A stretch of DNA of 52,232 nucleotides. Origin: Candidatus Pacearchaeota archaeon CG_4_10_14_0_2_um_filter_35_33 (GTDB lineage: Archaea > Nanobdellota > Nanobdellia > Pacearchaeales > GW2011-AR1). A program made the translations under genes and the position numbers. How positions within the stretch are numbered: position 1 is the first letter of the stretch; the number at the start of each line of letters is the position of its first letter. The stretch covers positions 1-52,232 of the forward strand of contig PFOR01000009.1 in the NCBI GenBank assembly GCA_002792635.1, in the 5' to 3' direction. The notes under the pieces were generated by a model. That model ran no database searches, was not told the origin of the DNA, and saw nothing but the letters and a program-made list of their open reading frames with translations. Below, one piece after another: positions 32,391 through 43,366 of this stretch.

Positions 32391-32460
32391 GAAACTATAA
32401 AAGCCCAAATCCATTTATCCCGGCATGATATTTGAAAAAGGGGAGTTGAAAACTTTATAG

Positions 32461-32841
32461 CCGTTTTATTTAGATCATCTTCTATCTTCAATCCTGTATT
32501 TTTCAGCAGCCTTTCTAGTTGTTTACTTTCTTGGAATTGGTTTTAGTACATTTCAGATAGGAATTCTTGTAGCAGCCATGCCCCTTACGGGATTACTTTT
32601 CGAAGTTCCAACCGGAGCAATAGCCGATATTTATGGAAGAAAGTTTTCAGTTCTTTTAGGGTATGCTATAGAAGGCATTGGATACCTATCATTATTTTTC
32701 ATACAAGACTTTTACGCAGTTCTATTAGCCTTCGCAATAATAGGATTCGGAACAACATTTTCCTCAGGAGCCAAAGAAGCATGGATCACAGATTTAATCA
32801 AAGGAAAAAAAGGAAAATATTTGAAAGACTATTTAGTTTGA
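32461..32841 (+). pseudogene. MFS transporter N-terminal fragment interrupted by the RM island
   Basis: PLTGLLFEVPTGAIADIYGRKFSVLLG ... GAKEAWITDLIKGKKGKYLKDY, then stop at island border. Confidence 0.7.
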
Positions 32842-32845
32842 GGGA

Positions 32846-34300
32846 TTAAGCTTTAGTTTTCAACTCATTGATATCACTTAATATTTCATTTTCTAACTTC
32901 TCAATTCTTTCCATAATTTGTTCTGGTGGATCATACTTAACATCTTGATATTCAATTTCTTTATACTTTGATATGCTTAAATCCCAATCATCATTTTTAA
33001 TTTCTTCAATTGGAACAAAAAAATGCTTTTTCTTTCTATCTTCGTTATCTTCATCTTTTCTTTTTTCAAAGCTTCCTATAATATCAGGTATATCTCCTTG
33101 TCCGTCATCTATTTGTGTTCTTTTATCATCTAAACTAAAACCATCACTTTTCATGTCATAAAACCAGACTCTTTGAGTTGGCTCTCCTTTAGTAAAGAAT
33201 AAAACAGCAGTAGGAACTCCTGCATATGGTTTGAACACTCCAGAAGGCATTTTTATAACTGCGTCTAATCTGCATTTTTCTAAAAGAATCTGCCTAATTG
33301 ATTTATGGGCTTTTGAATTTCCAAATAAAACACCATCCGGAACAATAACCGCACATCTACCACCACTTGCTAAAGAATTATACATTAATTCCAAAAATAA
33401 TAACTCTGTTTTTCTAGTTTTTATTAATAAATTATCACTCATCTCAGACTCATCAATACTTCCCTTAAATGGAGGATTTGCTAAGATTAAGTCATAAGTA
33501 TTTTCTTCATTATATCTTTTTGAGAGTGTGTTTAGTTGTTGAATATTTGGCCTAGTTATTCCGTGCATCATTAAATTCATTAAAGAGATTCTTGTAAGTG
33601 TTTGATCAATATCATAGCCATATAAAGATTCTTCATCTAAGATTTTCTTTTTCTGAGCTGTTAAAGTGCTAACTCCATCTTTTTTATTGGAGTTTAAGAT
33701 ATACTCATAAGCATTAATTAGAAATCCTGCAGTTCCACATGCTGGATCTAAAATCCTATCCCCATATTCTGGTTTTGCTAAATTAACCATCATTTTAATA
33801 ATGTGTCTTGGAGTTCTGAATTGTCCGTTTTTTCCTGCTGTTTGTAATTCACTTAAAAGATATTCATACATATCTCCTTGAGTATCTTGATTTTGCTCTT
33901 TAATGTGCATGTCATTTATTATTTTCACAGCCTCCATTAAAAGCGAGGCAGTTGGTATCTCAAAATTAGCATTTTTCATATATTTAGCATAAAATGAATC
34001 TCCGTTATCTAAATTTCTTAAGGAAGGAAATACTTTATCTCTAACATGATCCATTATTTTATCAGCAGAGTAATTGCTCCATTCAGACCATCTGCAATCT
34101 TTATGGTTTTCAAAAATAGATTTAAACTTTTCTCCTGTTAATCTTGCCTCTTGTTCTTTTCTAACATTTTCATCCTCTAACCTTTTCATAAAAATTAGGA
34201 AAGATATTTGTTCAATTGCTTGTAAGGGGTTAGAGATTCCACCAGACCAAAACTTATCCCAAAGCTTCTGTATTTGTGATTTTAGTTGTGGGTGTAGCAT
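32846..34300 (-). CDS. hsdM: Type I restriction-modification methyltransferase subunit
   Basis: DPACGTAGFL, LILANPPFKG, N-terminal HsdM region. Confidence 0.93.
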   Translation of the reverse strand: MLHPQLKSQIQKLWDKFWSGGISNPLQAIEQISFLIFMKRLEDENVRKEQEARLTGEKFKSIFENHKDCRWSEWSNYSADKIMDHVRDKVFPSLRNLDNGDSFYAKYMKNANFEIPTASLLMEAVKIINDMHIKEQNQDTQGDMYEYLLSELQTAGKNGQFRTPRHIIKMMVNLAKPEYGDRILDPACGTAGFLINAYEYILNSNKKDGVSTLTAQKKKILDEESLYGYDIDQTLTRISLMNLMMHGITRPNIQQLNTLSKRYNEENTYDLILANPPFKGSIDESEMSDNLLIKTRKTELLFLELMYNSLASGGRCAVIVPDGVLFGNSKAHKSIRQILLEKCRLDAVIKMPSGVFKPYAGVPTAVLFFTKGEPTQRVWFYDMKSDGFSLDDKRTQIDDGQGDIPDIIGSFEKRKDEDNEDRKKKHFFVPIEEIKNDDWDLSISKYKEIEYQDVKYDPPEQIMERIEKLENEILSDINELKTKA

Positions 34301-34302
34301 TT

Positions 34303-34797
34303 TTACATTTCCTTAAATTTTTTTCTTAGGTTATTTATTTCTTGGATTGTCAGTTTTCCAAAGTATGCCCTTAATTCTACATTAAACCTTTGTGCAACTT
34401 TTAATCGCTCATCGCATTTTTCTTTATGTATTGGCTCAGCATCATTCATAGGTATATAATATTGATTGTCTATCCGGTCTTTTTTGAATTCAGAGAAAAT
34501 TAGATATAGATTTTCTAAATCAAACAATTCTTTTATCAAAAGCACTGCTCCAGAATGATTTTCACATTTGATTCCACATTTAAAAAATAGTGACTGAACA
34601 GTGTTGTAGATTGAGTAATAAGCTTCTGAAACTGCGTTCTCATATATTCCTGCACCATATGCAAGTTTTGCTACTTGCATGCATTTTTCACTTTTTATCA
34701 AATATGATTTAGATATTTCTTCAGAAGGGTCTACAAGCTCTAATCTTTCTTCTTGTTTTAGTTTATTCAAAAAATTTGATTTTATCATAATACTCAT
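34303..34797 (-). CDS. HEPN-domain protein (MNT-HEPN module)
   Basis: Similar to 4268-4762: YYSIYNTVQSLFFKCGIKCENHSGA, KDRIDNQYYIP. Confidence 0.75.
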   Translation of the reverse strand: MSIMIKSNFLNKLKQEERLELVDPSEEISKSYLIKSEKCMQVAKLAYGAGIYENAVSEAYYSIYNTVQSLFFKCGIKCENHSGAVLLIKELFDLENLYLIFSEFKKDRIDNQYYIPMNDAEPIHKEKCDERLKVAQRFNVELRAYFGKLTIQEINNLRKKFKEM

Positions 34798-35362
34798 CTG
34801 CCCCCCTTATTATTACATGATTTTTTATTATTTCTTTTATTAATAAATCATTTTCATTGAATTTTCCAATTTTTATACTTATCAAATCATAGATTTTTTG
34901 TATTTCTTCTTTGACTTTCTGATTTGTTGTTTCGATGTAAACATCAATATCGCTGTCTTTTTTTGAATTTCCTTTTGCATAGCTTCCAAAAAGAATTATT
35001 AAATTGCAAGTGCATTTTCTGATAATATCTCGAAAAATAGGTTCAAGCTCTGGATATTTTAACAGTATCTTTGTAAGTTTGTAGTTTTCAGCATTTAAGA
35101 CAAATGATTTTGAGATTAAATTTTTTTTAATAAAATAAATATGATTTTTTCCAACAACCCTATAATCCAATACATTTATTTTTAGTAGTTCTTCAAGTAT
35201 TGACTGCACTCTTGTTAAAGAGGTCTTTAGTTCTTTTGCCAGTTCTCTTTGATGCATCTCTTTTTTTAAGAGGAGTAACAGTACTTCATACATATAATTG
35301 ACTTTTATTTGTGTCATATGACTTTTTAATAAGTCAGTAGTATTTAAGTCTTTTGCTTTCAT
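34763..35362 (-). CDS. wHTH-nucleotidyltransferase (MNT) antitoxin-like
   Basis: NLIILFGSYAKGNSKKDSDIDVYIET; winged-helix N-terminus; ATGA-type overlap with hsdS. Confidence 0.78.
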   Translation of the reverse strand: MKAKDLNTTDLLKSHMTQIKVNYMYEVLLLLLKKEMHQRELAKELKTSLTRVQSILEELLKINVLDYRVVGKNHIYFIKKNLISKSFVLNAENYKLTKILLKYPELEPIFRDIIRKCTCNLIILFGSYAKGNSKKDSDIDVYIETTNQKVKEEIQKIYDLISIKIGKFNENDLLIKEIIKNHVIIRGADEYYDKIKFFE

Positions 35363-36528
35363 CTTACTAACTCCCCTTTAAATGCTTTCTGCATCAAAAC
35401 CCCATTTAATTGTTCAATTTCTTCTAACGATTGTTTTTGTTTTTCTTTTATTTTTTCAATATGCTCGACGATTGAGGCAAAGGTTTGTTGGAGTTTGAGG
35501 GGTGGAAGGGGGATTTTAATAGATTTGATAACTTGCTGAGAAATATTTGGCTGTCCACCCCCAAAACTTGAACTAACTAATTTCTTTTTGATTGAACCTA
35601 AGAAGTATAATAAATAGATATTATTTAATAGATTGTTATCTTTGGGGATTAAAGAACAAATTGCTTGGTTTGTTGTTGCTCTAATTTTTAGCATGGAAAT
35701 TTTTCCAACACTTGCCCCATACATTGCGATTAATACGGTATTTGGTTCAAGATATTTTGCACTACTATTTTTTAATCCTAATTCAGTTATTTTTTCCTCA
35801 GTATTATGGATATAACCTTTATCTAGTTCTCCGGATTTAACCCATAGTATTGTTCCATTCTCCCAATATTCTTTTTTAATCCTTGAAGGTGTTCCGCCAC
35901 TTGTAGTATCACATAACTCGCGTATTTCTTTCTCTTCAAACTTCTCCTTCAAAAACACCTCACTAAAAACACTCTTCAGATAATCATCTAAAAACTCAAG
36001 TGTCTGTTTTCTTTTTTCTTTAAGATGTTCTGCTTTTTCTAAAATTGAAACTATGGCTTTTTGGGTTGGGAAGGGGGGGAGGGGGATTTTAATAGATTCA
36101 AACCTTCCTTTAGTAATATGTTTCATAGTTGAGCCATGTGTTTCTCTCATAAACAGATTTATACTCCTCTTCACAAAATAAAATAGATATTCTTTATCAA
36201 TAAAATCTCCTTTAGGAACAACTTTGAAAATATGCTGATTTAACCACCCTTCTTCTTTATCCCAGATAAATGCGTCTAAAGTTGCAGACCATGAAATTAA
36301 TAAATCTCCTCTTTTAACTAGATATTTACCTTCAAATTTCTTTGTCGTATAATTTGGGTTTGTTATAGAGCCTGTTAAGTCTTGAATACGAATTATTAAT
36401 TTTCCTTTTGGTTCCCATTCTGAAGGTTTAAACGCCCTACCATTTACAAATTGTGCTATTTCCTTTAATTCAACTTCCTTCCATTCTACTTGATTAATTT
36501 GTTTTATTTTCATTTTTTCTTTGTTCAA
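35359..36528 (-). CDS. hsdS: Type I restriction-modification specificity subunit
   Basis: Two TRDs each ending IKIPLPP...Q followed by a coiled coil. Confidence 0.92.
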   Translation of the reverse strand: MNKEKMKIKQINQVEWKEVELKEIAQFVNGRAFKPSEWEPKGKLIIRIQDLTGSITNPNYTTKKFEGKYLVKRGDLLISWSATLDAFIWDKEEGWLNQHIFKVVPKGDFIDKEYLFYFVKRSINLFMRETHGSTMKHITKGRFESIKIPLPPFPTQKAIVSILEKAEHLKEKRKQTLEFLDDYLKSVFSEVFLKEKFEEKEIRELCDTTSGGTPSRIKKEYWENGTILWVKSGELDKGYIHNTEEKITELGLKNSSAKYLEPNTVLIAMYGASVGKISMLKIRATTNQAICSLIPKDNNLLNNIYLLYFLGSIKKKLVSSSFGGGQPNISQQVIKSIKIPLPPLKLQQTFASIVEHIEKIKEKQKQSLEEIEQLNGVLMQKAFKGELVR

Positions 36529-37147
36529 CGCTCTTTTTTAATTCTAAAATTAATTTATCCATTAACTCATTTTGTGGCTGTAAGTTTTCATAAACCACAA
36601 CCAATCTTTTCCAAACTTCTTTTAAATCTTTACAAAATTGAGGGAAATTTGTTTCTAGTGTTTTATCCTTGCCATATACAGCATTACCAAAATCCCAACT
36701 GTGAGCTAAAACGTTTCTAACATTTTTTAGTTTGTTTAACATCTGAAACGTGTCATCAGAGATTAATTTCCACTCATCTCTTAAAATATGTATTTTTTGG
36801 GAAAAATCAATTTTGGTATTAAGCGAATCCAGCCAAGAGCCTCTAGCAGAAAAATCCTCTTTTAATATAATTGCTTGGATTATTTCATTAGTCATAAACT
36901 CTATTTTAGTAAATGAATCTAAAATTTCTCCGCGATCCAATCTTCTAGGAATTACCTCTCCAAACTCCTCCCTATGAAGACCATGACTTATATTCCCCCC
37001 ATATACTCTGAGCCATTGCTTTTTTCCAACTATAAAAATTTTTAAAGGGCGTATTCTATGATTATCCATTATTGCAATTAACTCTTTTAGCTTTTTCTCA
37101 TCTATATCTTTTGGTTCTCCAATATCTAATGTTGCTTTTCTATTCAT
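36494..37147 (-). CDS. HEPN-like protein with R-x4-H motif
   Basis: LKNVRNVLAHSWD. Confidence 0.55.
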   Translation of the reverse strand: MNRKATLDIGEPKDIDEKKLKELIAIMDNHRIRPLKIFIVGKKQWLRVYGGNISHGLHREEFGEVIPRRLDRGEILDSFTKIEFMTNEIIQAIILKEDFSARGSWLDSLNTKIDFSQKIHILRDEWKLISDDTFQMLNKLKNVRNVLAHSWDFGNAVYGKDKTLETNFPQFCKDLKEVWKRLVVVYENLQPQNELMDKLILELKKSVEQRKNENKTN

Positions 37148-37781
37148 TTTTTAATCCGTTTGCCTCATTTTGTATTTCTGCCTGACTTTTGCCAAGGAGA
37201 ATCCGAGAATATATTTCTTTCTTAAATAGAATACTTTGGTTATAAGCTAAAATAACATCAATAAGCCACTGAAAGTTGCTAACAAATTCCTTGTTTGCAA
37301 AAAGGACATTTTTCCAATTCTGATCCTTAAAAAAATGTTTATAGGGTACATCAGTAATAAATTCCAGGTCTTGTGCATCCCATTTAACAGGAACATGGGC
37401 AAAAATATCTCTTAGCGCCTCAAATCTTTCTAAGGTGACAGAGAGATTTTCCTTAGCCTCACCACCTAATTTTGGAAATGCATCTTCAATAAGCTTTTTC
37501 ATATCTCTTGACTTAGTCTTAAATCGAGGCATATTTTCTCTCTCTCTTATTCCCCTAACTAAATGAAATTCCTTTTTTGAATGATCCATAACTAAATCTT
37601 TGCCTGTTGCAGAAATTAAATTATTAAAACACATTTCAATTATTATTGAGAACTCGATAGTAATCCCTCTTATTTCTGTCATAAATTTATGTTTTTCTCT
37701 CAAGTTTGGAATACCATCTGCAATCTTTAGGGCTTCCTCCTTCATCTCTTCAATTGTTGGAATTTTATTTTCCTTCCCCAT
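37140..37781 (-). CDS. HEPN-like protein with R-x4-H motif
   Basis: RFEALRDIFAHVPVKW. Confidence 0.55.
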   Translation of the reverse strand: MGKENKIPTIEEMKEEALKIADGIPNLREKHKFMTEIRGITIEFSIIIEMCFNNLISATGKDLVMDHSKKEFHLVRGIRERENMPRFKTKSRDMKKLIEDAFPKLGGEAKENLSVTLERFEALRDIFAHVPVKWDAQDLEFITDVPYKHFFKDQNWKNVLFANKEFVSNFQWLIDVILAYNQSILFKKEIYSRILLGKSQAEIQNEANGLKNE

Positions 37782-37784
37782 ATT

Positions 37785-38393
37785 CTACAAAACACCCCCA
37801 GTTTTATCATCAACCCAAACCCCGTTTATCTTTGTCTTATCTTCCCAAAGACTATTTTCATTTCCTTCTTTAATTGCCTTATCAAGTTCTTCCTGACTCA
37901 TCCTGGATAATTCTTTATCTATTGTCTCTCTGATTTCATCTTCACTCTCACCGACAAAACTCATATCATGAAAATTTAAATCCGCCTTTGTTAATGCCTT
38001 GCTCCATTTTTCAGCTAAATCTCTTTTGGAACTCCAAAAAATCATACCTTGTTGAATAATAGCAAAAAAATCACTAGTCAAAATAGAATAAGAAATTTCA
38101 TCTTCTCCGTCATAAAATTTTCCTTCTCCGTCTTTCAATAATTCAATATTCTTAACCGCTTCTTCATAATTAACTTCAAAAACACTCTCAACAACTTCAT
38201 CATTTAGCTTTAAAATCCTTATATCTTCTTTTGGAAGAAATTCAATAAAAGTCTCCATCAATTTACCATGTTCTTCCCTATCAAAACCAAACATCTCTTT
38301 TGACTTAAACTCAACATACCAATAAAACTCATTTTCTTTTTCAATTTCATCGGTATTTCTTCCAATTAATTCATTCATTTCTCCATTCCTCAC
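37785..38393 (-). CDS. Acidic hypothetical protein in RM operon
   Basis: 202-aa ORF overlapping upstream gene. Confidence 0.55.
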   Translation of the reverse strand: MRNGEMNELIGRNTDEIEKENEFYWYVEFKSKEMFGFDREEHGKLMETFIEFLPKEDIRILKLNDEVVESVFEVNYEEAVKNIELLKDGEGKFYDGEDEISYSILTSDFFAIIQQGMIFWSSKRDLAEKWSKALTKADLNFHDMSFVGESEDEIRETIDKELSRMSQEELDKAIKEGNENSLWEDKTKINGVWVDDKTGGVL

Positions 38394-38643
38394 TTTTAAC
38401 CATTTCCCAAAGCTCTTCTTTTATTGTCTTATCTCTTTTGCCTTCCTTCAAAGACTTCATAATCTTATCATAAAAGCCAGGGTAATTATTTTTTATTCTA
38501 TCAAGTTTTAATTTAATATATTCATTTTTACATTTATCTGAGCAAAACAACAAGACTTTTTCATTTGAAAATTGCGGAGCTAACCAGATTCCAGAATTAA
38601 ATTCTTTTCCACATGATTTGCATTTTTCACTCATCCCCTCCAA
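38371..38643 (-). CDS. Small treble-clef-like zinc-finger protein
   Basis: CKSCGKEF...LLFCSDKCKNEY. Confidence 0.6.
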   Translation of the reverse strand: MEGMSEKCKSCGKEFNSGIWLAPQFSNEKVLLFCSDKCKNEYIKLKLDRIKNNYPGFYDKIMKSLKEGKRDKTIKEELWEMVKSEEWRNE

Positions 38644-38675: not shown

Positions 38676-38698
38676 TTTCATAGTTCTATAATAATCAT

Positions 38699-38790
38699 GC
38701 AGGGGGACGCAACCTGACGAAAGCCACATACACTTATGTGCTGGTGTGGGGAGTAGGATTGACGGACGCCATAACCCTACATTTATTTTG
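38699..38790 (+). ncRNA. Candidate structured ncRNA of unknown family
   Basis: GC-rich against an AT-rich background, no ORF; hairpins CACATA-CACT-TATGTG, CAGG..CCTG, GTAGG..CCTAC; T-rich end. Confidence 0.4.
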
Positions 38791-38800
38791 TTTTCTTGAG

Positions 38801-39268
38801 TCATTTCTGTTTATTCCTCTCTATATTTAATAAAGTATCCAAAACAAGGCTCGCTTGATATTCGGGTGTTCCTCTAATTAGTTCGCTTTCTTTTTTAACA
38901 ATTACTCTTTTACCATCAACAAATCCAACTAACTTATTAAAAGCCTTATATTGACGATTATCTATCGAAATAAAAATTATGCACTTTTCATGTTTTTTTA
39001 TGAATTCTAAAACATCGGCATATATGTCTGCATTATTATATAATTCTTTGATTTTATATCTTAAGAAAAAGGAGAGTATCTTATTTCTTTTTATCCTTTT
39101 TTTCATCGATTTAAGATATTCTTTCTTATGTCTTAGATTTTTATAATGGGTAAATTTCGTTATCTTGGGCAATAACTCAAACATCTTTTCATAACTGATT
39201 ATACTGTATCCAATAAGATTTTCTGAAAAGTCTATAAAAATGTAATAATCAAATTGTTTAAACTTCAT
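38801..39268 (-). CDS. Uncharacterised protein paired with RHH-like gene
   Basis: 155-aa ORF (YYIFIDFSENLIGYSI...IIFISIDNRQYKAFNKL) overlapping the upstream ORF. Confidence 0.5.
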   Translation of the reverse strand: MKFKQFDYYIFIDFSENLIGYSIISYEKMFELLPKITKFTHYKNLRHKKEYLKSMKKRIKRNKILSFFLRYKIKELYNNADIYADVLEFIKKHEKCIIFISIDNRQYKAFNKLVGFVDGKRVIVKKESELIRGTPEYQASLVLDTLLNIERNKQK

Positions 39269-39461
39269 CTTTTAAAACGCCTCCTAGCTTTTTATTAACC
39301 TCTTTCTGCACAAGCTCTCTCAATTTTTGATGAAGGCTTTTTGGTTTACCATTTATGCCCTCGGTTTCGCAGATCTTCATAAGGTTGGCAAACTCCGAAC
39401 GATAAAGCTTAGTTGAGATAACTCGTCTTTCTTCACCTCGTAAAGGATTCTTTTTTACCAT
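39258..39461 (-). CDS. Small basic RHH-like regulator/antitoxin
   Basis: 67-aa ORF RRVISTKLYRSEFANLMKICETEGINGKPKSLHQKLRELV. Confidence 0.45.
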   Translation of the reverse strand: MVKKNPLRGEERRVISTKLYRSEFANLMKICETEGINGKPKSLHQKLRELVQKEVNKKLGGVLKDEV

Positions 39462-39518: not shown

Positions 39519-39875
39519 TTAATTATGTGCAAGTATTGGGCTAGCAAACTCTGTCTTTCTTAATGGGGGCATTGGTTGAGAGAATTGCTTGCCTTTTGAT
39601 TGTAACACAACTAAAAGCATCCATTGATTTCTAAAACTTTTATATTCAATTCTTGCAGAGTTTAGTTCAGATAAAAAACTCTTATTTATCTCAGGATTAA
39701 ACGAACCAAAAAATTCACTAGCATCCATTATTTCTATTCCAACAACCCCATCATCACTATCCAAGTCAAGAACTATTCCTTCTGACACCTCCAAACTTTC
39801 TTTAACATCTTCATTATGTTCATAAATAACTAAAATATCATTCTCATCATCGTAGTCGTATTTCATATTATTCAT
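39519..39875 (-). CDS. DUF2283-like antitoxin-type protein
   Basis: MKYDYDDENDILVIYEHNEDVKESLEVSEGIVLDLDSDDGVVGIEIMDASEFF. Confidence 0.7.
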   Translation of the reverse strand: MNNMKYDYDDENDILVIYEHNEDVKESLEVSEGIVLDLDSDDGVVGIEIMDASEFFGSFNPEINKSFLSELNSARIEYKSFRNQWMLLVVLQSKGKQFSQPMPPLRKTEFASPILAHN

Positions 39876-40207
39876 TGTATTTCTAAGTTTTTAAATCTTT
39901 TTTTGTTATATTTAGACAAGGTTTTCCTACCTAGAGGATAGGCAGTAATTACTCTTAATCTATCTCTAATAGTTATTATGTAAACTCTGCCTTTCCTTTT
40001 TGAATAAACATAAAATAGTGCATATCTTAATTCCTTATTGACTCTTTGCTTTTCAACAAATTTCAAATTTTTAAGAGAAAACAAATCCTCAACTACTTCT
40101 TCTTTTGTTGCCTTTATTCTATTCAAGAGATATTTTTCCAATTTTCCAAACTCAAAATCCTCTTTAGAGTACTTTTCTAATAACTCTTTAGCCTCTTTTA
40201 TTTCCAT
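39872..40207 (-). CDS. Toxin-like partner of the DUF2283 protein
   Basis: 111-aa basic ORF, ATGA-type overlap with 39519-39875; YVYSKRKGRVYIITIRDRLRVITAYPLGRKTLSKY. Confidence 0.5.
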   Translation of the reverse strand: MEIKEAKELLEKYSKEDFEFGKLEKYLLNRIKATKEEVVEDLFSLKNLKFVEKQRVNKELRYALFYVYSKRKGRVYIITIRDRLRVITAYPLGRKTLSKYNKKRFKNLEIQ

Positions 40208-40208
40208 T

Positions 40209-42953
40209 TTATTTCCATCTCAATTCTTTACATTTCTTAACAACATGTTCTAATTGCTTTAATGTAAACTTATCTAATGGCCTTTCTTCTGTTAAAGGAT
40301 GTTTAGCTAAATCCTTTAGTTCAATATGCTTTGTCCTAACAAAAACTTCTTTTAATAATCTTAAAAATTTTAATTGCTCGGAGTTGTAATGCTCATTTCT
40401 TGAAAGTACATACTTATCAAATTCCATCTTTATAATCCCTTCAGGATCAGGAAGGTCTTTTAACCCAATTATTTGCCTCAAAAAGATAACAAAATCAACC
40501 TTAAGGATATTCTGCAAATTATCAATAGTCCAAGTAGGATTTAAACCAGAAAGCTTTTTTTCAATCTCTAAGAGTTCATCAGAAGTTACACCTTCACCAA
40601 ACCTAATTTTTTTAATAAGTGAATCTTTTTCTAAAAGCTCAATTAAATCAGGGTTCTCTTTAATCTCGTGCTTTATTTCTTCAACACTTAAAACAATATC
40701 CGGAGCATTTACTCTTAACATCTTTTTCCTGTCCTTTTCGTAATAAATCAATAAAGGGGCTATTTCTCTAATTAAGAAATCAGCATCATCAAAAGTCAAA
40801 TCACCCCAAAACTTATCACCTAAGACTTTTTTCAGTTCATCACTTTTTGCCTGCACAACTTCTAAACCTTTCTCCCAAATGTTCTCAACTCTTTCTTGAA
40901 CAAAATCTTGAACTTTCCAAATCTTATCCTTATCATCTTCTTTTATAGCATCAAATAGCTTAACGCACTGAGATATAAAATAATAAACCTTTGAATTATC
41001 TGTTTTAGAGTAAATCAATAAAGGGGCTATTTCTTCTTTCAATGTTTTTATGTGGTCTTTTAATTCAAACTTTTTAGAAACAACTTTTTTAATAATTGAG
41101 GCTTTCTCCATAACAACAGGAGAATCCATATCAATTGTCTTTATAGTATCTCTAATTTCTTTTTCTAATATTTTTCTTTGCTTATCATCAAGCTTTTTCT
41201 TTAATAAATCAACTTGTTCTAAGAAAATTCTTGTTTTAGCATCCATCACAGCAGATTTAGCCCTTGATTTGTCAAGCTTATGAAAAATTACATTTGAATG
41301 ATCCCCAAACTTAAAATCTAAAATTAAAAAGTTCTCTTTGACATGGATTCCATCTTTTGAAGGCAATCTATCTTTAAATCTACAAGCTTCTAAATTTCTT
41401 GTTCCTCTTCCCAACATCTGCCAAAATCTGATAGGAGAGAAAACAGGCCTTACAAAAACTAAATTACATATTTCAGGAATATCTACTCCAGTATCTAAAA
41501 CACCGACAGATAAAGCAATTCTAGGTTCATCATATCTATCAAATCTTTTAACTTCATCCATATACCTTGACCTATCTGAAGTTATAACCCTCACATCTTT
41601 AGCTAAAACAGGATATAACTTATCAAAGATTTCTTTTAATGAATCAGCATGTTTTACACTAGCACAAAAGAAAATAGTCTTACATGGCCTACCATCATCA
41701 GATTTATAGCAACGATCTACAAATTCTCTAACAATAAGTTCATTTGTTCTGGCATCTGTAAAATACCTCTCAAACCTTGTTCCCGGAAGTTCTGCCACCT
41801 CAGGATTTTCTTCTTGTTCCTTAAGAGCCTGTTTTAAATCCTTAGTTAATTTTGCCCCTTTAATTCCAAGAGTTAAAACTTGAGTATCAATAACATCCGC
41901 AACATAAGGCACTAAAACATTATCATTAACAGCAGTATCATAATCATAAGCAACTGTTGGCTTTTTATATTCACAATCAAACAAATCAAAAGTATCTCTT
42001 GTTTCCTCACTTGAAGGAGTTGCTGTAAGCCCTAATTTTAAACAATCAAAATACTGAAATAAAATATTATTCTTTTCATAAAAAGATCTATGGGCTTCAT
42101 CAAACACAATTAAATCAAATTCTGCAACTCCAAACTTTTCAAACATAGGCCTTTTTCTTTTATTGTCGTCATCGGTAAGAGTTTGAACTGTTGACGTATA
42201 AAGTGTAGCTGTATCTGAAAAACCTTCAACATTCAACTCACAAACAGGATCTGAAAAAAATGACTTAAACCCTCTTTCCTTAGCTTGATTTGATAATGAA
42301 ATCCTATCAACAACAAACAATACATTCTTAACATAACCTGCTTTAATTAAAGCATCAATAATAGCCATAGATACTCTTGTCTTTCCTGTTCCTGTTGCCA
42401 TATTGATTAAGGCAGATCTATGGCCTTTTTCATAATGCTTAAGAATCTGTTTAACTGCTTCTATACTTCTGGCACGATCAACTATTTTTTTATTTAACTT
42501 AACTTGGGAAGGTTTAATCTCATGCTCAAAAAGATATGCTCTTCTATGAAGGTCTTTTTGTGAAAAAGGAAGTAAAACTTTTCTCCTTCTGTCTTTTTGG
42601 TCTATAAAATACCATGTTTCTCCATTAGTGAGAAAAATAGGAATTGTTTTTTTGAGTTTTTTCTCAATATCTTCTTGATAAGTTTTTGCTTGTATCTCCC
42701 CTTTCTTAAAATCTACCGAACTTCTCTTTGCTTCAATAATGGCAAGAGGAGAGTTATTTTCATCTAAAAGCAGATAATCAATAAATCTATCCTTCCCTCT
42801 TTCAACCTTTCCACTAAAAGGAACATACTCTTTAGTTTTAAAATTAGATTTGAGAGAGTTTACTTCTTCCTTAATATATTTCTTCATCCATCCAACTAGC
42901 TCTAGCTTTGGATCTATTATTTTTTTTCTTGTGTCTTTCTCTGATAAGTCCAT
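40209..42953 (-). CDS. hsdR: Type I restriction endonuclease, R subunit
   Basis: PD-(D/E)XK FIDYLLLDENNSPLAIIEAKR, Walker A NMATGTGKTRVSM, DEAHRS, GRGTRN. Confidence 0.93.
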   Translation of the reverse strand: MDLSEKDTRKKIIDPKLELVGWMKKYIKEEVNSLKSNFKTKEYVPFSGKVERGKDRFIDYLLLDENNSPLAIIEAKRSSVDFKKGEIQAKTYQEDIEKKLKKTIPIFLTNGETWYFIDQKDRRRKVLLPFSQKDLHRRAYLFEHEIKPSQVKLNKKIVDRARSIEAVKQILKHYEKGHRSALINMATGTGKTRVSMAIIDALIKAGYVKNVLFVVDRISLSNQAKERGFKSFFSDPVCELNVEGFSDTATLYTSTVQTLTDDDNKRKRPMFEKFGVAEFDLIVFDEAHRSFYEKNNILFQYFDCLKLGLTATPSSEETRDTFDLFDCEYKKPTVAYDYDTAVNDNVLVPYVADVIDTQVLTLGIKGAKLTKDLKQALKEQEENPEVAELPGTRFERYFTDARTNELIVREFVDRCYKSDDGRPCKTIFFCASVKHADSLKEIFDKLYPVLAKDVRVITSDRSRYMDEVKRFDRYDEPRIALSVGVLDTGVDIPEICNLVFVRPVFSPIRFWQMLGRGTRNLEACRFKDRLPSKDGIHVKENFLILDFKFGDHSNVIFHKLDKSRAKSAVMDAKTRIFLEQVDLLKKKLDDKQRKILEKEIRDTIKTIDMDSPVVMEKASIIKKVVSKKFELKDHIKTLKEEIAPLLIYSKTDNSKVYYFISQCVKLFDAIKEDDKDKIWKVQDFVQERVENIWEKGLEVVQAKSDELKKVLGDKFWGDLTFDDADFLIREIAPLLIYYEKDRKKMLRVNAPDIVLSVEEIKHEIKENPDLIELLEKDSLIKKIRFGEGVTSDELLEIEKKLSGLNPTWTIDNLQNILKVDFVIFLRQIIGLKDLPDPEGIIKMEFDKYVLSRNEHYNSEQLKFLRLLKEVFVRTKHIELKDLAKHPLTEERPLDKFTLKQLEHVVKKCKELRWK

Positions 42954-42997: not shown

Positions 42998-43366
42998 GTT
43001 CAAACTATCTTAATCACTGGAATTTTCATAGTCTCTGTGGTTTCTATTGCTGCAATAATAACCGTTCTAGTCTTATTTGTTCAAAGCATTGTTTTAGCCT
43101 TTGCAATCACTATCGCAACAATATTCTTCTATACAATGAAACGACCCCCTCTAAGGGTGTATTTCCATAGATTTATTCTATCGGAGTTAAGGGCCACAAT
43201 AGGCTCAATGGAAACAATAGTCCTTTCGGTAGCAAGTATAATTGCAATTCCTCTTGTTGGTTTAGCAGTAGACATATTAGGACCAAGAATAGCTATATTC
43301 CTTTCAGCAATACTATTAGCCCCAGGAATTATAATATTCTATAAAATCAAAGACGCTAAGAAATAA
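42998..43366 (+). pseudogene. MFS transporter C-terminal fragment
   Basis: Frame without upstream start: TILITGIFIVSVVSIAAIITVL...ATIGSMETIVLSVASIIAIPLVGLAVDILGPRIAIFLSAILL. Confidence 0.65.

Follow-up and report, generated by a model that had tools for sequence, protein, structure and literature searches.

The stretch of DNA analysed here (52,232 nt, referred to as the window) contains a type I restriction-modification (R-M) locus in which HsdR, HsdM and HsdS are all encoded. The genes and features of this locus are listed below in their direction of reading; the four genes designated P1 to P4 are referred to as cargo.

40209-42953, minus strand: HsdR, EcoEI type, without an N-terminal DUF4145 (HEPN) domain
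39872-40207, minus strand: small gene between hsdR and cargo, weakly BrnT-like
39519-39875, minus strand: small gene between hsdR and cargo, DUF2283
39258-39461, minus strand: small gene between hsdR and cargo, RHH-like by eye
38801-39268, minus strand: small gene between hsdR and cargo
38695-38782, minus strand: conserved 88-nt element, just upstream of the cargo
38371-38643, minus strand: P1, treble-clef (L24e/zf-FCS-like) zinc protein with CKSC...CSDKC; ATG at 38634 is the likely start
37785-38393, minus strand: P2, acidic protein of 202 aa
37140-37781, minus strand: P3, HEPN-like protein of 213 aa, motif R124-DIFA-H129
36494-37147, minus strand: P4, MtlR-clade HEPN-like protein of 217 aa, motif R144-NVLA-H149
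35359-36528, minus strand: HsdS specificity subunit; ATG at 36513 is the likely start
34763-35362, minus strand: wHTH-nucleotidyltransferase (MNT antitoxin-like), GSx10DxD
34303-34797, minus strand: HEPN protein (PF05168), partner of the MNT protein, RIDNQYY in place of RX4HXY
32846-34300, minus strand: HsdM methyltransferase

A preliminary description of this DNA had placed four overlapping genes upstream of hsdS, and P1 to P4 are indeed found there, their junctions consisting, by ORF coordinates, of overlaps of 8-35 nt or a gap of 3 nt, with P4 overlapping hsdS. Similarly, the proposed operon-like run with HsdS and HsdM was confirmed, as hsdS, the MNT gene, the HEPN gene and hsdM follow P1-P4 in the same direction, while hsdR is located upstream, beyond the four small genes including that for the DUF2283 protein. 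The pair between hsdS and hsdM is of the MNT-HEPN type, consisting of the GSx10DxD nucleotidyltransferase and a HEPN partner that matches Pfam above the cut-off and has no histidine at the usual position of RX4HXY. The R-M block splits an MFS transporter gene, the flanking remnants of which align with residues 5-139 and 289-398 of related proteins. These remnants reside at window positions 32428-32832, with an in-frame stop, and 43025-43354, and the middle part, about residues 140-288, is missing.

P3 and P4 had been assigned to the HEPN proteins on the basis of the motifs RDIFAH and RNVLAH. The bare R-x4-6-H pattern had to be rejected as evidence for such an assignment: of 132 ORFs between 150 and 300 aa long from all loci compared, 46 contain it, or about a third of the ORFs of similar size. 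It is rather the conservation of the arginine and the histidine among homologues that supports the HEPN reading. The preliminary description had made its assignment dependent on this conservation, which was found: both residues are invariant in the P3 family (8/8 homologues, at 38-72% identity) and are present in P4, in its homologue and in all seven MtlR-type relatives. The further claim of three HEPN-type proteins holds in graded form, clearly for P4 and moderately for P3 by profile comparison, and by Pfam for the partner of the MNT protein, even though the latter carries RIDNQYY.

For P4, a two-sequence profile was compared with seven plasmid-borne MtlR-type proteins, yielding an hhalign probability of 95.6% (E 1e-8) over P4 residues 61-154. 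The match includes RG...E, FxxK and RNxFAH; in contrast, the N-terminus of P4 differs from that of MtlR, and the operon is an R-M and not a mannitol operon. P4 scored 19.4 bits against DUF4145 (PF13643; E 0.0011), which is below the Pfam cut-off of 23.1 bits, and gave no Pfam match to MtlR (PF05068). Thus, P4 appears by sequence to be related to MtlR and DUF4145, but it is no member of either family by the curated cut-offs, and its interpretation as a divergent HEPN-like protein of the MtlR clade is supported by the profile comparison. The AlphaFold model of P4 alone was unusable (pLDDT 45). No P4 homologues were identified in viral contigs or phages, plasmids gave one weak MtlR-like match, and a relative in G207 stands alone with no R-M genes within the stretch read. 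One MtlR-like gene of an Acinetobacter plasmid (L014 4923-5468) has a BrnT/BrnA pair and a SecB-like gene in its vicinity, and the plasmid-borne MtlR-like genes may serve as toxin-antitoxin (TA) or defence genes and not in mannitol repression.

The P3 family was not matched in Pfam, including its HEPN families, nor in NCBIfam, PHROGs or PADLOC. All its homologues originate from records named Nanoarchaeota, Pacearchaeota or Woesearchaeota, and none was detected in viral contigs or plasmids. Six of the eight family members (the homologues in L016-L021) carry an HNH-like CxxC-HH-CxxC insert (best Pfam E 0.022), which is lacking in P3 of the window and its 72% identical relative. In an alignment read by eye, the usual catalytic asparagine and the last histidine of this insert are apparently missing. 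The P3 profile gave no direct match to DUF4145 or to the window's Pfam HEPN protein. With the insert cut out, profile-profile comparison with P4 resulted in a probability of 72.9% (E 3e-5), with RG...E, FxxK and RxxxAH of the two proteins aligned with one another. The insert-free profile reached 71.2% against a combined MtlR and P4 profile and 19.3% against the MtlR set alone. The fair control for this score consists of two-sequence families and not of single sequences; the next best of 25 other matched two-sequence families reached 1.1%, and the best single sequence of another protein 5.0%. The score fell to 8.9% when the insert was kept in full-length P3, to 4.3% with P4 as a single sequence and to 0.3% with P3 as two sequences, so that the match depends on profile depth on both sides and on removal of the insert. 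P3 is plausibly a HEPN-like protein, with moderate support for homology to P4. The AlphaFold model of P3 (pLDDT 81) is mostly helical, with both motif residues (R124 and H129) located where a helix ends; a Foldseek comparison of this model with the PDB gave no HEPN match, and a PDB sequence search yielded nothing useful. As Foldseek did not match P3 to a HEPN structure and the P4 model was unusable, we infer HEPN identity for both proteins from their sequences, with the better support for P4.

The reading of P1 as a treble-clef zinc finger, put forward in the preliminary description, was borne out by its resemblance to the treble clefs of L24e and zf-FCS. P1 was considered as a marker for related modules and rejected, as most of its matches in 103 genomes were weak and are probably ribosomal L24e. 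Most P2 homologues possess a C-terminal SEC-C motif, instead of which P2 of the window has a LWEDKTKINGVWVDDKTG tail. Several P2 homologues adjoin R-M genes (L030, L032, L033 and L127), a P2 relative in G374 is located immediately before hsdS, and L031 harbours relatives of both P1 and P2. P2 and its G374 homologue share a tail of the form LWE[DN]KTKINGVWVDD with a protein of G185 that differs from them in other respects, and all three are encoded in type I R-M loci (window 37785-37886, L109 798-1304 and L034 6284-7099).

To place the locus in context, the window genes were compared with 13 type I loci, five of which are operons with the same gene order (G371, G189, G137, G379 (L130) and G393). 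HsdM identity was 71-74% in all five and HsdR identity 54-73% in four of them, the L130 stretch giving a weak partial match only. P1, P2, P4, the MNT protein and its HEPN partner had no match in the five operons, and P3 was present in one, so that the four-gene neighbourhood is not conserved among them. Relatives of the cargo occur apart or in other combinations. Two type I operons (L015 and L021) combine P3 with hsdS and lack P1, P2 and P4; in L017, an N6/N4 methylase and a CfrBI-type endonuclease are encoded next to a P3 homologue and a P1 relative; and the P3 relatives in L018-L020 have no R-M genes within the stretch read. We therefore rejected P1-P4 as a conserved module. The preliminary view that the four genes form one undescribed defence module was abandoned also since HEPN proteins in R-M operons have long been described (PMC3710099, PMC3506569).

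What is conserved is a chassis of the order hsdR, small TA-like genes, slot A, hsdS, slot B and hsdM. In the window, slot A is occupied by P1, P2 and the distantly related MtlR-type HEPN-like proteins P3 and P4, and slot B by the MNT-HEPN pair. In the related loci, the cargo beside hsdS encodes DUF4145 (L130), HEPN (L128) or PIN (L131, L124) domains, and transglutaminase (L015), M48 peptidase (L128) and SLFN_AlbA_2 (L122, L130) domains are found around hsdS. A second locus of G379 (L129) has an MNT and HEPN pair in the same place as that of the window, with the HEPN protein just under the cut-off. In G399 (L125 4905-8179), genes with SIR2 and Piwi domains resembling a short-Argonaute pair are located between hsdM and hsdS.

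The 88-nt element upstream of P1 is GC-richer and recurs in two other loci. In G371 (L122 6212-6299) it follows a relative of the gene that precedes it in the window, and in G210 (L123 10034-10122) it follows hsdM. In all three loci it directly precedes cargo genes of type I R-M systems, and an 18-nt core is identical in all copies. The three sequences are compatible with an outer helix bearing two double compensatory changes, a result that 44 of 500 shuffles also reach. The reading frames of the core block differ between the window and G371 (alignment read by eye), which speaks against a small protein. The element had no match in Rfam, and a search of 43 loci and of viral contigs gave no further copies. 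These features are suggestive of a structured RNA or a DNA site.

PrrC-PrrI is one precedent, and at least 16 clades of HEPN proteins have previously been linked to R-M systems; by analogy to PrrC it has been proposed that the R-M complex holds the RNase and frees it once a virus has defeated restriction (PMC3710099). DUF4145 is also known in fusion to type I restriction subunits (PMC3506569), and we found it at the N-terminus of a Vitreoscilla HsdR of the same EcoEI type as that of the window. The HsdR of the window is devoid of this domain, so that its role may be taken over in trans by the HEPN-like proteins encoded separately. The locus shares with these systems the EcoEI-type HsdR and the occurrence of HEPN-type proteins inside or fused to a type I system; it differs in being archaeal, in the separate MtlR-clade genes adjoining hsdS, and in the lack of an ABC ATPase, no ATPase domain being matched in P3 or P4 by Pfam as would be expected for PrrC or RloC. 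In Escherichia coli, DarTG2 resides between hsdS and hsdR at a site that has been called a possible hotspot (PMC12255303). Toxin genes between type I subunits are common to both cases, and an M48 peptidase lies nearby in E. coli, as it does in L128; here, however, the genes are HEPN-like instead of DarT, the host is archaeal, and the cargo flanks hsdS on both sides. Finally, the MNT-HEPN pair beside P1-P4 and its counterpart in G379 resemble the known TA type, although the HEPN partner in the window is devoid of the RX4HXY histidine and P3 and P4 belong to other HEPN-like clades. The locus is hence an archaeal variant of a theme described in 2013; new are the P3 family, the conserved 88-nt element and, for Nanoarchaeota, the pattern of slots.

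Based on the analogy to PrrC, P3 and P4 probably provide a second-line RNase response. As putative RNases or RNA binders, they would be silent in the uninfected cell, perhaps restrained by contact with the R-M complex, an inhibition we presume from PrrC, or by P1 and P2, for which a role as restraining partners is likewise conjectural. A virus that blocks restriction would act as the presumptive trigger and release P3 and P4, whose predicted RNase activity would then cut RNA and stop growth. We regard it as an evenly balanced proposition that P1-P4 are swappable cargo of a Nanoarchaeota type I R-M operon with P3 and P4 as such second-line RNases. A wider version, in which Nanoarchaeota type I R-M operons are exchangeable weapon platforms with varied toxin systems (HEPN-like pairs, MNT-HEPN, PIN, SIR2-Piwi, proteases) in the two slots flanking hsdS, a conserved structured element at the edge of the slot governs how cargo is expressed or exchanged, and P3 and P4 are a matched pair of HEPN RNases triggered via the R-M complex, appears improbable.

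It might also be speculated that P3 and P4 constitute one or two stand-alone TA units which stabilise the island by addiction, with P1 and P2 or each other as antitoxin and without any link to restriction. The overlapping gene pairs, the other TA-like genes of the island (the MNT-HEPN pair, and DUF2283 with its BrnT-like neighbour) and the occurrence of P3 away from R-M genes are in line with this scenario, but P3 and P4 are not inherited as a set with P1, P2 or each other, and their recurrent position beside hsdS points to a connection with R-M; we consider it rather unlikely. To about the same degree we doubt that P3 and P4 are non-catalytic, MtlR-like RNA-binding regulators tuning expression of the R-M operon. 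By profile, P4 is closest to MtlR, a family in which many members are regarded as inactive RNA binders (PMC3710099), and the cargo is immediately preceded by a conserved element that may be structured; yet P4 retains both the arginine and the histidine, which are invariant in the P3 family, and neither of the other two loci with the element (G371, G210) contains a P3 or P4 match. The most improbable account is that P1-P4 are neutral hitchhikers of a recombination hotspot around hsdS, as might be suggested by the fast turnover of cargo against the conserved chassis and by the interrupted MFS gene, since toxin, nuclease and protease domains abound in the cargo of related loci and the P3 motif has remained unchanged across divergent homologues.

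R-M and CRISPR-Cas systems are underrepresented in DPANN archaea (PMC12988326). Should P3 and P4 prove to be RNases linked to the R-M complex, a two-layer defence of the PrrC type would extend to these archaea, and a HEPN-like family without Pfam, NCBIfam or PADLOC match would be added. In addition, a conserved chassis with variable cargo at hsdS offers a simple handle for finding more defence genes of Nanoarchaeota. Elsewhere in the window, a tRNA match over 126 nt at positions 448-573 suggests an intron-containing tRNA gene.
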